NCBI GenBank assembly: GCA_029167225.1
Contig: JARFNK010000017.1
Location: 1 to 64,000, forward strand
DNA length: 64,000 nt
Direction: 5' to 3'
Source: Sphingobium arseniciresistens
Lineage (GTDB): Bacteria > Pseudomonadota > Alphaproteobacteria > Sphingomonadales > Sphingomonadaceae
The translations under genes and the position numbers were made by a program. The notes under the pieces were generated by a model. The model was not told the DNA's origin, did not search any database, and saw only the letters and a list, made by a program, of their open reading frames with translations. The first letter of the stretch is position 1. Every line of letters starts with the position of its first letter. Of this stretch, positions 4,438 through 10,224 are shown piece after piece.

Positions 4438-5877
4438 CTACCTTTGCCGCATGGTTTCCAGCCGGGCGGCGAAATCCCTCAGATCCTGTACGAAACGCGC
4501 ATATTCCCCGTCACGGTCCTCCTGGACGCGCAGCAGGAAACTGGGATGGACGGTCACGCCCAACGCGCCGCCGTCAAGCGCCACCTGCGGGATGCCGCGC
4601 ACCGACGCGATCGAGGTTGCCCGCCCCGTCAGCGCTTGTGTGGCCGTCGCGCCGAGCGCGATCGTCAGGACCGGACGCACCAGCGCGCGTTCCTGATCCA
4701 GCCACCAGCGACAAGCCTTGATCTCGCCGCCATTGGGCCGCGCGTGCAGCCGCCTCTTGCCGCGCGGTTCGAACTTGAAATGCTTGACCGCATTGGTGAC
4801 GTAAACCTGTGCCCGATCGATCCCCGCCTCAACCAGCGCCCTGTCGAAGAGCTGCCCGGCAGGCCCTATAAAGGCCCGGCCAGCGAGATCCTCCTGATCG
4901 CCCGGCTGTTCTCCCACGAACATCAGCGCGGCGTCGACCGGCCCTTCGCCGAACACCGTCTGCGTGGCGCAGCGATGCAGGTCGCAGCGGATACAGCCTG
5001 CCGCCGCCCGTTTCAGGGATGCCCATCGGTCCTGCGGAGACAGCGCCTCGTCACCGATCTCCCCCGCCATATCCATCGACTCCCTCGACCGTTCGACCAT
5101 CGCCGTTTCGCGGCCATGAGCACCCGCGACGAGCTGATTGATGAGTGCCGTCTCGGGCATGTTCGCCCAATATTTGCGCGGCATTTCCTTCAGCATCGCC
5201 TTCATCTTCAAGCGCGCGGGGTTGAAGATGGCGGCATAATAGCGCTTCCACGTCTCCTCCACAGGATCGCCCGCTGGCGCATCCGCGCGGACCGCGCCCG
5301 GCCCTTCGCACAGCGATGCGCCATCCCAGTGCAGCGAAAGCGCCGGGGTCAGGATCGACCAGCGCATCGCCGCGAAGCGATCGACGAAGAAGGATGCAGC
5401 CGTGCGGACGATATGATGTTCAGGCTCGAACCACGCGATGAAATGCGGCGCGCCATCCTTCCCGGAGATTTCGCGAAAGCGCAGGAAGGCATGCATCTTG
5501 TGAATGTCCCGCCGCACGGCCTTGGCCAGCATCTCCACCCGGCGAACCAAGGGGTCGGCCTTGTCGGTGAAGGCCCCCGGCTGCGCGCGAACACGGAGCA
5601 ACAGCACATAGAGAAGCGCGAACCGTTCAGGATCGCCATGGCAGGCCGCCATGCGCGCAAGGGCGACGAAGCCGCGCGGGACGGCGAATGCGCCATCGTT
5701 CAAAGCGCCGTAATGTGGGGGTGCGGCCGTACCAACGTTCCCCCCGAAAAGATCGCCGCCCTCGCCTTCCACCCGCCACAGGATGTCGCCGGGTGCCGCG
5801 CCCCTCCCCGCCAGCATCCGCGCAGCCTCGCGCCACCCCTCGAAATCGTCGGGGGCCGAAAGGCGCACCTCGTGCAT
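4438..5877 (-). CDS. udgX: DUF4130 - UdgX uracil-DNA-binding fusion protein
   Basis: 479 residues. Roughly 1-235 match DUF4130, the putative DNA-metabolism domain that accompanies UdgX. Roughly 280-479 are a UdgX-type uracil-DNA glycosylase: CIRC at 295-298 and Cys389 as Fe-S cluster ligands, GEQPGDQED at 322-330 (uracil pocket), the KRRLH loop at 374-378 whose His becomes covalently linked to the abasic site in studied UdgX proteins, and HPSFLLR from 444. A further family-4 UDG Cys position appears to be His366 (NAVKHFKF). The ATG at 5877 overlaps the stop of the radical SAM gene (TGATG), so the two are translationally coupled. Assignment is firm for UdgX; the role of DUF4130 is unknown. Confidence 0.92.
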   Translation of the reverse strand: MHEVRLSAPDDFEGWREAARMLAGRGAAPGDILWRVEGEGGDLFGGNVGTAAPPHYGALNDGAFAVPRGFVALARMAACHGDPERFALLYVLLLRVRAQPGAFTDKADPLVRRVEMLAKAVRRDIHKMHAFLRFREISGKDGAPHFIAWFEPEHHIVRTAASFFVDRFAAMRWSILTPALSLHWDGASLCEGPGAVRADAPAGDPVEETWKRYYAAIFNPARLKMKAMLKEMPRKYWANMPETALINQLVAGAHGRETAMVERSRESMDMAGEIGDEALSPQDRWASLKRAAAGCIRCDLHRCATQTVFGEGPVDAALMFVGEQPGDQEDLAGRAFIGPAGQLFDRALVEAGIDRAQVYVTNAVKHFKFEPRGKRRLHARPNGGEIKACRWWLDQERALVRPVLTIALGATATQALTGRATSIASVRGIPQVALDGGALGVTVHPSFLLRVQEDRDGEYARFVQDLRDFAARLETMRQR

Positions 5878-7127
5878 CAGCCCCCAAACAGCTCCAGTTG
5901 CTGGGGCCGCGGCGGCTTGACCCAGGCGCTGAGGTCGGCGCGATCGGACAGGACGGTGGGCGTCCATCCCTGCGCGATGATGAACGGCCGGACCTTGGCG
6001 ATCGACGCCGTCAGCCGGGCCACATCCTCGATGCGCAGCTTCCGCCAGCGCCGGGAACTGAGGATGCGGTCCACCGCCCGCACGCCCAGCCCCGGCACGC
6101 GCAGCATCTGCTCACGCGGCGCGCGGTTGATATCGACCGGGAACATGGCGCGGCTGCGCAGGGCAAAGGCGAGCTTGGGGTCGATGTCGAGCGGCAACAT
6201 GCCGGCAGCATCGGTCGCCTGCGCCACCTCGCTGGTCGAATAGCCGTAGAAGCGGATGAGCCAGTCCGACTGATAGAGCCGATGCTCCCGCATCAACGGC
6301 GGGCGGCGGAGCGGCAGGACGGCGCTGGCATCGGGAATGGGCGAGAATGCCGAATAATAGACCCGCCGCAAGGCATGGCGATCATAAAGCTGGCCGGCCC
6401 GCGCGACGATCTGGCTGTCACTCGCCTCGTCCGCGCCCACGATCATCTGGGTCGACTGCCCCGAGGGCGCGAAGCGCGGGGCATGGCGGTAGCGGCGGCG
6501 GGCATCGCCGCCATCCTCGATCGCCGCACGCATGCCCAACATCGCGCCGTCGATCCGCCCGGCGTCCTTTTCCGGCGCGAGTTTCGCAAGGCCGGCAACC
6601 GTCGGCAGTTCGACATTGATCGATACCCGGTCCGCATGGATGCCAGCAGACCGGACCAGTGCCGGATCGGCGTCGGGGATCGTCTTGAGATGAATATAGC
6701 CGCGAAAATGATGCTCTTCGCGCAGGATGCGCGCGACCTCGACGATCTGCTCCATCGTATAGTCGGGCGAGCGGATGATGCCCGACGAGAGGAACAGGCC
6801 CTCGATATAATTGCGGCGGTAGAAGGAGAGCGTCAGGTCCGCCACCTCCCGCGCCGTGAACCGGGCGCGGCGCACGTTGGAACTCACCCGGTTGATACAA
6901 TAATGGCAGTCGTAGACGCAGGAATTGGTCAGCAGGATCTTGAGCAGGCTGATGCAGCGCCCGTCCGGCGCATAGGCATGGCATATGCCCATGCCCCCAT
7001 CGGTCGAGCCGATGCCCTTGCCGTCCCGGCTGTTCCGCTTCACCGCACCAGACGAGGCGCAACTCGCATCATATTTGGCAGCGTCGGCCAGGATGGATAA
7101 TTTCTCCCCAAGATCGAGACGCGCCAT
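5877..7127 (-). CDS. Radical SAM protein, putative DNA modification/repair, UdgX-linked
   Basis: 416 residues. Cys70-x3-Cys74-x2-Cys77 (SCVYDCHYC) is the radical SAM 4Fe-4S site. A helix-hairpin-helix (PGLGVRAVDRIL, 345-356) suggests DNA contact. The C-terminus ends QQLELFGG, and QLELF at 410-414 fits the bacterial sliding-clamp-binding consensus QL[SD]LF. This family is recurrently paired with UdgX/DUF4130, as here with overlapping stop and start codons. The ATG at 7127 is preceded by AAAAGGA, which overlaps a GTTC-N7-GTTC site on the plus strand. The reaction is unknown; DNA-base repair or modification is inferred from domains and partners. Confidence 0.9.
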   Translation of the reverse strand: MARLDLGEKLSILADAAKYDASCASSGAVKRNSRDGKGIGSTDGGMGICHAYAPDGRCISLLKILLTNSCVYDCHYCINRVSSNVRRARFTAREVADLTLSFYRRNYIEGLFLSSGIIRSPDYTMEQIVEVARILREEHHFRGYIHLKTIPDADPALVRSAGIHADRVSINVELPTVAGLAKLAPEKDAGRIDGAMLGMRAAIEDGGDARRRYRHAPRFAPSGQSTQMIVGADEASDSQIVARAGQLYDRHALRRVYYSAFSPIPDASAVLPLRRPPLMREHRLYQSDWLIRFYGYSTSEVAQATDAAGMLPLDIDPKLAFALRSRAMFPVDINRAPREQMLRVPGLGVRAVDRILSSRRWRKLRIEDVARLTASIAKVRPFIIAQGWTPTVLSDRADLSAWVKPPRPQQLELFGG

Positions 7128-7129
7128 TT

Positions 7130-7144
7130 GTTCCTTTTATGTTC
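7130..7144. promoter_or_regulatory. Candidate LexA (SOS) box, GTTC-N7-GTTC
   Basis: GTTC at 7130-7133 and GTTC at 7141-7144 are separated by exactly seven bases, the form of the alphaproteobacterial LexA operator. It ends three bases before the ATG of the radical SAM gene and covers its ribosome site, so LexA bound here would block expression. Two exact matches would be expected by chance in 64 kb of both strands, so the position is what gives it weight. Confidence 0.6.
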
Positions 7145-7314: not shown

Positions 7315-9930
7315 TTACAGCTTGAACGACAGGCGGGCGTAATAATAGCCGCCCTGCCAGTCGACCACCGACTGCGCGCGGTAGATGCGTCCGGCCGTCG
7401 CCTGCAGGCGATCGGGATCGGGGTAGTTGTCGAAGATGTTCCTCGCGCCCACCGACAGCGTATATTTGTCGTCCAGCGTGTAGCTCAGTTCCATGTCGAT
7501 CTGCGCTTCGGGGTTGAACTTCTGCGTGCCGAAGGGGGTTGCCGTCGACATGACGGTGTAGGGACCGAAGATATTTGCGCGCACCATCGCCTTGAACGCG
7601 CCGATCTCATGATTGGCCGTGACCGAACCGCGCCAGCGGGGGACGTCATTCTCGAAATTATAGATGGTGTAGTTGGCCAGCGCCGCCTGCGGGATGTTGA
7701 TGCTGTCGATCTTGTACCAGTTGGCGTTGAACGCCGCCGTCAGGTTCGACTTCATCCGGTTCTGCCAGCGATGGGTGTAGGACGCGATGACGTCGAAGCC
7801 CTTGGTCGTGGAATCGAAGGCATTCTGGAAATAGGCGACGCTGGCGATGCTGTCGGCGCCCGGCACATTATTGGCGATCAGCGCCGCCTTGAGCGCAGCA
7901 TCCACGTTGCGCGGCGTCGTCGCATAGATGGCGTCGCGGATCTTGATGAGATAGCCGTCGACGGTGAAATCCAGCCCCGGCAGCGGATTGGCGGTGAAGC
8001 CCAGCGAATAGTTGGTCGACTTTTCCGGCTTCAGATCGGTAGCGCCCAGGAAGCGTGAGATCGGATTGTCGGCCGGGAACAGCCCCGCCTGGGTATAGAC
8101 CCCCTCGACCGTGCGGATCGAGACCGAGGTCAGGTTGCGCAGGCCCGGCGAGGGCGCATGGAAGCCGGTGCCGATCGACCCGCGGATCGCATAGCCCTTG
8201 ATGAATTCGTAGCGGGTGGCGAACTTGCCGTTCCACTGCGAACCGAAGCTGCGGAAATTCTCGTAGCGACCGGCGAAATCCAAGAACCAGCCCGGCAGCG
8301 GATCGGTCGACACTTCGCCATAGACCGAAACCGCACGGTCACTCCATTTGCCCGCCGCCGAGGGCGGGATGCCGTTGATGCCGTTCGATCCGACCGGCAG
8401 CACATTGTAGACCGGATCGAACCCGGCGAAGCCATCGCCCGTTCCCGACAGATAATTGCCGCAATTAAGACCCGACACCGCAAGGCCCGCCGTGGTCGGC
8501 GTGCGATTGTCGTTACAGAAATTATAGGGGTCGGCGCTGCTATAGGGGCCGGCGCGATAGGATTCGAGGTCGCCCGGACGGATGGTGAACGTCTCCTTGC
8601 GATATTCGACGCCCGCGCTGATCACCAGCGGCTTGTCGAATGCCGCGACCGGCACGGTGTAGGCAAAATCGCCGTTCAGCGACAGTTCCTGCTCGATATA
8701 TTGCGAGGGCGTGAAATCGCGCGGCGAGTCCGGGCCGATCGACGCATTGACCGTATTGTTGATCGTGTAGACCTGCTTGTTCCAGCCATAGCGGCCGCTC
8801 AGATCATAGCTGAAGCTGCTGTCGCCGGCCATGTCGATCGTGTTCTTGTAGCCCGCGACCGCGCTCCAGTCGGTCACGTCGCCCGAGAATGTCGGGGTAA
8901 AGCCCGCCGGGAACAACTCGGTGAAGGAGAAGATCGACCCGTCGGCCAGCCGCACCGGCACGCCGTTGACCGCCTGCCCGTTGGCGGGGAAGCGATAATT
9001 GGCGTCCACGGTCGCCTTCGACTTGGAGAAGTTGCCGAAGGCATAGATCTGGCCGTTGTCGCCCACGTCGATGCCCGAGTTCACCACCGCGCGGAAGGCG
9101 TGCGAGATGGGCTGCCCCCAGCGCTGCAACGGCTTGTCGAGGTCGATCAGGCTGGCATAGCCGGGATTGGCGGCCGCATAGCTGGTCGCATCGAAGGCCG
9201 TGCTGGAGAACTGGTTGGCGCGCGTCGTGCCCTCGTCCTTGCTATATTCGGCGGTGATGTTGACGAAGCCATGGTCGGTCAGCGGCAGGCCAACATTGCC
9301 CATCAGCAGGATGCTGTCGCCGTCATTCTTGTAATATTGGCCGGTCTGGGCGACCAGCGTCATGCCGTCATTGTCGTCCTTCAACTGGAAGTTGATGACG
9401 CCGGCGATCGCGTCCGATCCATATTGCGCCGCCGCGCCATCGCGCAGCACTTCGAGCGACTTGAGCGCCAGCGAGGGAATGACCGCCGCGTCGGAACCCT
9501 GGGCACCGGTGCCAGAGCTGCCCACGCTGGCCGCCTTGTGCCGGCGCTTGCCGTTCATCAGCAGCAGGGTCTTGTCCTCCGGCAGGCCGCGCAGGCTGAT
9601 CGGGCGGATGAAGGTGCCGGTATTGCTGTTGGGCTGGCGGGTGACGTTGAAGGACGGCACCACCGTCTGCAGCACGTTCAGCGTATCGGTGTGCGACACC
9701 TTCTCGATATCTTCGGACGAGAAATGGTCGATCGGCACGGGCGAATCCTGCACCGTGCGGGGCTGGCCGCGTACGCCGGTCACGACGATGGCGCTGTCTT
9801 CCGTCTCCGCTTCGCTGGTCTGGGGCGCGCTCGTCTGGGCGCCGCCGCTCTGGGCCTGGGCAGGTATGGTGACGACCAGTGCGAGGAGCGAGGCTCCGAG
9901 CAAGTGCAAGGTTCGAGATTTACAAGCCAT
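7315..9930 (-). CDS. TonB-dependent outer-membrane receptor
   Basis: 871 residues: Sec signal peptide (1-26, ending PAQAQS), a TonB-box-like DSAIVVTGVRG near 40, a plug domain (about 50-190, with ISLRGLPEDKTLLLMNGKRR and VLRDGAAAQYGSDAIAGVINF), then a 22-strand barrel ending in the outer-membrane signature ARLSFKL. This is the sphingomonad type that usually takes up carbohydrates or other organic nutrients. The ATG at 9930 starts the signal peptide; the open frame continues upstream to 10083 without family character. A strong terminator follows. The ligand cannot be inferred; the neighbouring D-alanine operon is a separate unit. Confidence 0.92.
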   Translation of the reverse strand: MACKSRTLHLLGASLLALVVTIPAQAQSGGAQTSAPQTSEAETEDSAIVVTGVRGQPRTVQDSPVPIDHFSSEDIEKVSHTDTLNVLQTVVPSFNVTRQPNSNTGTFIRPISLRGLPEDKTLLLMNGKRRHKAASVGSSGTGAQGSDAAVIPSLALKSLEVLRDGAAAQYGSDAIAGVINFQLKDDNDGMTLVAQTGQYYKNDGDSILLMGNVGLPLTDHGFVNITAEYSKDEGTTRANQFSSTAFDATSYAAANPGYASLIDLDKPLQRWGQPISHAFRAVVNSGIDVGDNGQIYAFGNFSKSKATVDANYRFPANGQAVNGVPVRLADGSIFSFTELFPAGFTPTFSGDVTDWSAVAGYKNTIDMAGDSSFSYDLSGRYGWNKQVYTINNTVNASIGPDSPRDFTPSQYIEQELSLNGDFAYTVPVAAFDKPLVISAGVEYRKETFTIRPGDLESYRAGPYSSADPYNFCNDNRTPTTAGLAVSGLNCGNYLSGTGDGFAGFDPVYNVLPVGSNGINGIPPSAAGKWSDRAVSVYGEVSTDPLPGWFLDFAGRYENFRSFGSQWNGKFATRYEFIKGYAIRGSIGTGFHAPSPGLRNLTSVSIRTVEGVYTQAGLFPADNPISRFLGATDLKPEKSTNYSLGFTANPLPGLDFTVDGYLIKIRDAIYATTPRNVDAALKAALIANNVPGADSIASVAYFQNAFDSTTKGFDVIASYTHRWQNRMKSNLTAAFNANWYKIDSINIPQAALANYTIYNFENDVPRWRGSVTANHEIGAFKAMVRANIFGPYTVMSTATPFGTQKFNPEAQIDMELSYTLDDKYTLSVGARNIFDNYPDPDRLQATAGRIYRAQSVVDWQGGYYYARLSFKL

Positions 9931-10224
9931 TACATAACCCCCATTTTTGCTGTGCGACAGTGTCCTGCACACCGTCCGATCCACTGAGGGGCCTCTGTGT
10001 TTCTTGTGACAGATGACCCGGCTATGATCCTTTTGCAAAAGCAGGATATGTGCGGCCCGACCGTGCTTGGTGCCGAATTTCAAGGAGGCAGCGGAATCTT
10101 ATGCCAAGTTTCTGCATGAAGACGCGCGATCTGGAGGAATGAACGCGCCGCCTGCCATGTACGGCAGGCACGAAAAAGGGCGCGCCCGACGGAAGCGGAC
10201 GCGCCCTTTTGCTGAAATGAAGGC
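9931..10224. other. Intergenic region between RidA and TonB receptor genes
   Basis: 294 bases that must hold the receptor promoter. The only clear structure is the ridA terminator hairpin (10174-10210). I see no convincing promoter hexamers and no small gene. Confidence 0.5.
10174..10210 (-). terminator. Terminator after the alr-dadA-ridA operon
   Basis: Eleven-base perfect arms (10174-10184, 10200-10210) around a 15-base loop, with A-rich DNA on the left that gives a U-tract on the minus strand. It begins 15 bases after the ridA stop. Confidence 0.8.

Follow-up and report, generated by a model that had tools for sequence, protein, structure and literature searches.

What brings a radical S-adenosylmethionine (SAM) enzyme together with a uracil-capturing DNA glycosylase, and on what would such an enzyme act? 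We examined this question for a gene pair of Sphingobium arseniciresistens that lies on the minus strand of contig JARFNK010000017.1, within a stretch covering positions 1 to 64,000 (64,000 nucleotides, nt; hereafter, the window). The span 4438-7127 comprises both genes together: one encodes a radical SAM protein of 416 amino acids (5877..7127; hereafter, rSAM), and the other a protein of 479 amino acids in which a DUF4130 domain is fused to UdgX, a uracil-DNA glycosylase (UDG; 4438..5877). The rSAM stop codon and the start codon of the fusion gene share a single base (TGATG) at position 5877, confirming the overlap from which an initial annotation of the window had concluded that the genes are coupled. 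At the sequence level we observed lineage-specific LexA boxes, a DUF4130 that is constant, a UdgX that is dispensable, and a tail peptide on rSAM that hardly varies. The reading to which we give slightly more than even credence is that of an SOS-induced, clamp-tethered radical enzyme that would process damaged bases together with DUF4130.

Both proteins are ordinary members of the family trio TIGR03916/TIGR03915/TIGR03914, from which they showed no difference. In NCBIfam, rSAM scored 543.6 bits against TIGR03916 (rSAM_link_UDG; curated cut-off 343.5), and in Pfam it narrowly missed the gathering score of Radical_SAM PF04055 (27.8 bits, E = 3.2e-06; gathering score 29.5). The fusion protein scored above the thresholds of TIGR03915 (203.1 bits versus a curated cut-off of 112.25), DUF4130 PF13566 (129.9 bits versus 27; Pfam), and the UdgX model TIGR03914 (301.7 bits versus a curated cut-off of 189.95), and Pfam also reported UDG in it. 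We take COG4277 to be the same family as TIGR03916. Comparisons were made in a set of near relatives (the best 80 of at least 579 rSAM relatives), in a phylum sample of 299 genomes where rSAM, DUF4130, and UdgX were counted at curated cut-offs, and over 139 aligned rSAM homologues in which residue conservation was scored. One of the 80 near relatives, from a Sphingomonadaceae bin, was 88% identical to rSAM, and the other 79, mostly Sphingomonas and Sphingobium, were 73-78% identical.

The rSAM promoter carries a LexA (SOS) box, GAACATAAAAGGAAC, of the alphaproteobacterial direct-repeat type (7130..7144, minus strand), which ends 2 nt before the rSAM ATG. In all 80 near relatives, GAACN7GAAC or GTTCN7GTTC was present within 120 nt upstream of rSAM, against a background of 21 alpha-type matches in the 832 kb that make up the remainder of these loci. 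LexA boxes of the E. coli type read CTGT-N8-ACAG, and both types were sought in the phylum sample in a 150-nt promoter window: loci from the same class displayed the alpha-type box in 35 of 35 cases and CTGTN8ACAG in 0 of 35, whereas the 17 loci outside the class displayed the alpha-type box in none and CTGTN8ACAG in 15 (12 exact and 3 with one base off in an end arm), with background expectations of 0.16 of 35 and 0.21 of 17. This switch of box type with the LexA specificity of the lineage strongly supports genuine control by LexA, and, judging from these patterns, the rSAM promoter is almost certainly under SOS control. The boxes also bear out the role in handling DNA damage that had been claimed for the pair. 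A chance box was considered, as GTTCN7GTTC is expected 1.2 times per window, and rejected because of its conservation across the loci of relatives; a second GTTCN7GTTC at 8674-8688 was rejected as an SOS site, since it lies inside a TonB-receptor-like open reading frame (ORF; 7315-10083). Across the S. arseniciresistens genome, TTGTTCN7GTTC occurred at 21 sites versus 4 for the reversed control pattern. The 6 genes checked behind it (recA, uvrA (part), two SRAP genes, an MmcB-like gene, and ribonucleotide reductase alpha) are of known SOS types, and some of the remaining sites among the 21 will be chance matches.

At its C-terminus, rSAM reads ...QQLELFGG, of which QLELF (residues 410-414 of 416; 5886..5900, minus strand) is a consensus-type pentapeptide for binding the beta sliding clamp (DnaN). 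The consensus for such pentapeptides is QL[S/D]LF. A strict pattern, QLxL[FWP], matched 85 of the 139 homologues within their final 25 residues, where shuffling of the tails predicts 0.7, and none of the 139 within the protein body. With a relaxed pattern, all 138 fetched homologues matched in their last 35 residues (6.9 by shuffling), their bodies yielded 23 matches per 52,286 residues, and the last 12 residues matched in 137 of 138 rSAMs versus 6 of 1597 other ORFs (at least 150 amino acids, coding or not). Residue Q410 was kept in 139 of 139 homologues, and columns 383-409 held no invariant residue across 12 diverse rows. Tails of the same kind were observed in other phyla (QLILPF in Parabacteroides, QLSLF in Pusillibacter, and QLKLF in Fusobacterium), and the Pol IV-like protein encoded in the S. 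arseniciresistens genome, which served as a positive control, terminates in QLALAI. These tails suggest that rSAM likely binds the sliding clamp, which, if true, would mean that radical SAM chemistry takes place at the replication fork and would offer a handle on the lesion. The resemblance to the Y-family polymerase Pol IV extends to the C-terminal clamp-binding peptide and the context of damage tolerance, but the predicted clamp client here is a radical SAM enzyme and no polymerase. The S. arseniciresistens genome itself contains two matches over the DnaN cut-off (C88:202445-203551 and C1:88591-89724), which points either to a second clamp or to an assembly of mixed origin; its listed contamination is 6.02%.

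What would a clamp-tethered radical enzyme do during the SOS response? Modification of nucleic acids is common among radical SAM enzymes, and the substrate of rSAM is very probably a nucleic acid, as far as its sequence features tell. The best-surviving alternative to the favored reading is that rSAM installs a DNA (or RNA) base modification during SOS, with no lesion repair. Besides the general frequency of such chemistry in the superfamily, the NCBIfam product name of TIGR03916, 'putative DNA modification/repair radical SAM protein', fits this explanation, and tethering to the clamp would suit post-replicative marking. However, it would presumably be unusual for a constant modification to depend on SOS induction, and no reader or restriction partner was named in the annotated neighborhoods examined, in which no systematic search was made. 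We consider this explanation unlikely as a whole, and on the pattern of these features regard repair, rather than modification, as moderately probable.

The distribution of the families speaks to the partner with which rSAM would act. In the phylum sample, 66 of the 299 genomes matched rSAM at E <= 0.001, of which 53 exceeded the cut-off (the 13 weak matches were not counted), and DUF4130 and UdgX exceeded theirs in 56 genomes (57 including a broken fragment) and 52 genomes, respectively. The rSAM and DUF4130 families are thus widespread. DUF4130 was present in all 53 rSAM genomes and occurred without rSAM in 4, namely G071, where the match, a stop-containing fragment, was counted as present; G200, where the contig starts 1.2 kb before DUF4130 and rSAM may be cut off; G217; and G287. 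Chance co-occurrence was rejected (Fisher p about 1e-54, uncorrected for relatedness). In 52 of 52 other loci, rSAM and DUF4130 lay on the same strand, in 46 of these at most 100 nt apart and at maximum 2,978 nt. Among the near relatives, DUF4130 was found in the rSAM locus in 69 of 80 (in one as a piece), and for the other 11 and the piece-only one a search of the genome found it (12 of 12); in L047, L087, and L088, which hold less than 2.4 kb after rSAM, neighbors may be cut by contig ends. This co-occurrence agrees with the functional coupling that the initial annotation had put forward, and we place great confidence in a constant partnership of rSAM with DUF4130, as read from the genomes compared.

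UdgX was a less faithful companion. It was over the cut-off in 40 of the 53 rSAM genomes, leaving 13 with rSAM and DUF4130 but no such UdgX, and it occurred without rSAM in 12 of the 299 genomes, 3 of which retain DUF4130 or a piece of it. Records from Parabacteroides, Pusillibacter, and Fusobacterium each contained rSAM and a stand-alone TIGR03915 protein, both over cut-off, and UdgX exceeded its cut-off in 0 of these 3 records, for which the search covered the plasmids only, and not the chromosomes, of Parabacteroides and Pusillibacter; Fusobacterium gave one match of 22.2 bits. All four non-Pseudomonadota loci are plasmid-collection records, including that of Fusobacterium vincentii (NZ_CP084075.1; L192), which is filed as a plasmid yet is chromosome-sized at 2.1 Mb. 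On a quick rSAM tree of 56 rows with some long branches, the fused/alone label changed 7 times, with at least 6 changes forced by starred branches; L122 and L145 had been scored 'fused' by hand before the tree was made (contig edge; UDG in another frame). The UdgX-less genomes and the repeated label changes indicate that rSAM-DUF4130 is the core of the module and that UdgX is optional, an addition that many Proteobacteria carry as a fusion with DUF4130. If so, UdgX, now a tool in genomics and base editing, would in many genomes belong to a larger repair module that can do without it.

This pattern bears on two explanations that give UdgX a larger part. In the first, the pair would serve UdgX-centered excision or protection of uracil and apurinic/apyrimidinic (AP) sites, akin to the shielding by SRAP/HMCES, with rSAM as an auxiliary. 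Such a role matches the label of a putative UDG-based base excision repair system that the available part of PMC8565304 attaches to a COG1573-COG4277 operon, as well as the AP-site protection proposed for UdgX in the available part of PMC10359453, and the two SRAP genes of the S. arseniciresistens genome likewise bear LexA-type boxes. Yet it is UdgX that goes missing, with rSAM and DUF4130 persisting jointly, and we judge this explanation rather improbable. In the second, which was the proposal of the initial annotation, rSAM would act on the covalent UdgX-DNA adduct, to release or repair it. The coupling of rSAM with a DUF4130-UdgX fusion gene would make sense under that proposal, as would the presence of UdgX in most rSAM genomes, the fusion of DUF4130 to UdgX in 64 of the 69 near-relative DUF4130 loci, and the retention of the capture histidine in 101 of 106 fused proteins by pattern and in 4 of the remaining 5 by inspection (the fifth, L176, has a loop insertion, yet contains RKH). 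But the 13 genomes and three other-phylum records in which the pair persists without UdgX over the cut-off, the 12 genomes with UdgX but no rSAM, and the repeated changes of the fusion label all count against it. The adduct proposal is thus disfavored, and we hold it to be very unlikely.

In the protein anatomy of rSAM, two elements had been named correctly before. The radical SAM motif CxxxCxxC is CVYDCHYC at residues 70-77 (Cys70/74/77; 6897..6920, minus strand) and was kept in 139 of 139 aligned homologues. A helix-hairpin-helix (HhH) at residues about 330-358 (6054..6140, minus strand) gave weak matches to HHH_3/HHH_5 in Pfam (E 0.016-0.02) and to ComEA/RuvA profiles; the sequence RVPGLG at residues 343-348 agrees with this assignment, and R343, P345, G346, and G348 were invariant in 139 of 139 homologues. 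A profile search of rSAM against PDB sequences found chiefly the HhH, along with weak radical SAM matches (best E 0.00088). The N-terminal region (6954..7064, minus strand) adds the residues C23, C49, H50, and C58, each conserved in 138 of 139 homologues; the initial annotation had missed these, as it had the LexA box and QLELF. The only homologue lacking them is the divergent rSAM of Gemmatirosa (L193), and we infer from the alignment that they may bind a second metal at a site linked to the partnership with DUF4130. The Gemmatirosa rSAM (L193:4001-5263) retains CxxxCxxC, the HhH, and the peptide QLSLW. A pyrimidine dimer reversal enzyme of the spore photoproduct lyase (SplB) type, to which rSAM is alike in being a radical SAM enzyme with a proposed role in DNA repair and to which the available part of PMC3765255 may refer in speaking of SplB-like radical SAM photolyases with DUF4130 (this family and COG1533 proteins are not distinguishable there), is highly doubtful, as the SplB family was in 0 of the 14 NCBIfam matches of rSAM up to E = 1 (hmmscan) and as rSAM differs by its C-terminal HhH, clamp peptide, extra N-terminal cysteines, and constant DUF4130. 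The next NCBIfam matches after TIGR03916 were ThiH, BzaD, HydE, NrdG, and MoaA. By hhalign, rSAM aligned to the SplB-like family at E 0.82 and to biotin synthase at E 0.76, in a comparison so insensitive that the control pair reached merely E 0.0076.

For the favored reading, an SOS-induced enzyme acting on damaged bases, we can outline a putative sequence of events. Cleavage of LexA would lead to synthesis of rSAM, the tail of which would dock onto the DnaN clamp while its HhH would bind DNA. At a stalled fork, a 5'-deoxyadenosyl radical could then act on a base lesion, either converting or reversing it, with DUF4130 recognizing the lesion or completing the reaction, and UdgX, if present, would capture and shield uracil or AP sites in the same stretch of DNA. 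All steps of this scheme, the lesion and the reaction included, are inferred. A bolder version, which we offer tentatively on the same comparative grounds, is that rSAM, induced by SOS, would be the first radical enzyme with a clamp tether and would chemically reset a fork-blocking base lesion together with a new lesion-handling domain, DUF4130, such that the polymerase passes without excision or translesion synthesis, with UdgX as an AP-site trap added in some lineages.

Several observations weigh against the favored reading. Regarding SOS control, 2 of the 17 out-of-class loci (L133 and L153) show neither box type, and inspection by eye revealed no box before the rSAM genes of Parabacteroides, Pusillibacter, and Fusobacterium, lineages that may use a different LexA code. 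At the loci of the sphingomonad DUF4130-UdgX genes that were not found whole beside rSAM (L196-L207), the GAACN7GAAC box was found in 0 of 12 over the stretches covered, which counts against shared regulation where rSAM and DUF4130 are truly apart. As to the constant partnership, no TIGR03915/DUF4130 match was found on the 1.1-Mb Gemmatirosa plasmid that bears the L193 rSAM, in a search of the plasmid only and not of the chromosome. As for the clamp peptide, the motif is short, and we fitted the relaxed pattern post hoc, with tails such as QM, QA, QG, and QMEMF already in view; M at position 4 was admitted once 14 tails had failed, the tails inspected among them being QMEMF, and the strict pattern is unaffected by this. 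Two weaker Y-family polymerase-like proteins of the S. arseniciresistens genome, which we took for ImuB, gave no terminal clamp match. The AlphaFold2 model of rSAM, built with 41 near relatives, had a predicted local distance difference test score (pLDDT) of 54, with the HhH part alone confident; because of this score we draw no active-site argument from the model, and a fold search with it returned no match at E <= 0.001. Finally, the features described give no direct sign that rSAM acts on DNA and not on RNA or nucleotides.

The partner protein was correctly described as a DUF4130-UdgX fusion with a KRRLH loop. Its DUF4130/TIGR03915 domain spans 5149..5856 and its UdgX domain (TIGR03914) 4477..5145, both on the minus strand, and the KRRLH loop lies at residues 374-378 (4744..4758, minus strand), with the motif GEQPGD at residues 322-327. 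The histidine of the loop is equivalent to H109 of M. smegmatis UdgX, the covalent-capture residue of that loop according to the available part of PMC10359453. Structures of M. smegmatis UdgX were the top Foldseek matches of the fusion model, at 47-51% identity, with motif A, GEQPG, and the KRRxH loop in common; the difference is that the UdgX of S. arseniciresistens forms the C-terminal half of a DUF4130 fusion, in an operon with a LexA box. The UDG half also matched PDB sequences at E 1.3e-69 in the profile search. By fold and sequence it is a normal member of its family. The DUF4130 half, in turn, matched no PDB sequence at E <= 1 in that search, in which matches were only to UDG and in the UDG half, and no DUF4130 relative was among the best 50 of 622 Foldseek matches (49 of the UDG superfamily and 1 phage DNA polymerase). 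The fusion model had a mean pLDDT of 79.6, with residues 61-200 mostly at 81-95 and residues 201-240 at just 56-60. Columns of DUF4130 that were invariant over 12 diverse rows are R134, F135, P153, R168, I176, W211, R223, W238, and E243, in a numbering that follows P0002 and equals the real protein number + 1.

How much of this was known? The initial annotation had called the roles of the rSAM and DUF4130 partners undescribed, which stands for their chemistry, as we found none in the openly licensed literature, but not for their association and SOS placement. The NCBIfam names rSAM_link_UDG and SAM_7_link_chp already record the linkage, and an annotated Phaeobacter pair has the same gene order and one-base overlap as that of S. 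arseniciresistens. An association of rSAM, DUF4130, and UDG appears in a 2013 figure legend in the available part of PMC3765255. In 2021, a two-gene COG1573-COG4277 operon was assigned to the Bacteroidetes SOS network, with citations of work on Verrucomicrobia and Alphaproteobacteria (PMC8565304, available part), and a 2007 review listed four COG1573 glycosylases among the Caulobacter repair genes (PMC1839093, available part). In the available portions of the UdgX papers PMC10359453 and PMC10776899, the words 'operon' and 'SOS' were not found, nor was 'DUF4130' in that of PMC10359453. The gene pair is thus real and its linkage not new; linkage and SOS control were published before, while the clamp peptide of rSAM and the split into core and accessory are new, in that neither was found in openly licensed literature.

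Further observations concern the surroundings of rSAM in other records. Of the 80 sphingomonad loci L023-L102, 26 have a hemerythrin-like gene, identified by a short-motif match, between rSAM and DUF4130, and its product might shield the Fe-S enzyme from oxygen; in S. arseniciresistens, the genes overlap with no hemerythrin-like gene in between. The copy that was checked (L208) matched Pfam Hemerythrin at 59.1 bits. This copy comes from the sole relative in the viral collection (L208:1-5016), a contig that carries rSAM, the hemerythrin gene, and an ORF resembling a phage tail tape by eye, and that is probably the edge of a prophage. A 538-kb plasmid-collection record of Acinetobacter baumannii (H57) lists an rSAM 49% identical to that of S. 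arseniciresistens, next to the copies from Bacteroidota and Bacillota in the same listing. Lastly, L086, titled Arthrobacter sp. TPD3018, displays a Sphingomonas-like locus with an rSAM 76% identical to that of S. arseniciresistens and is probably mislabeled.

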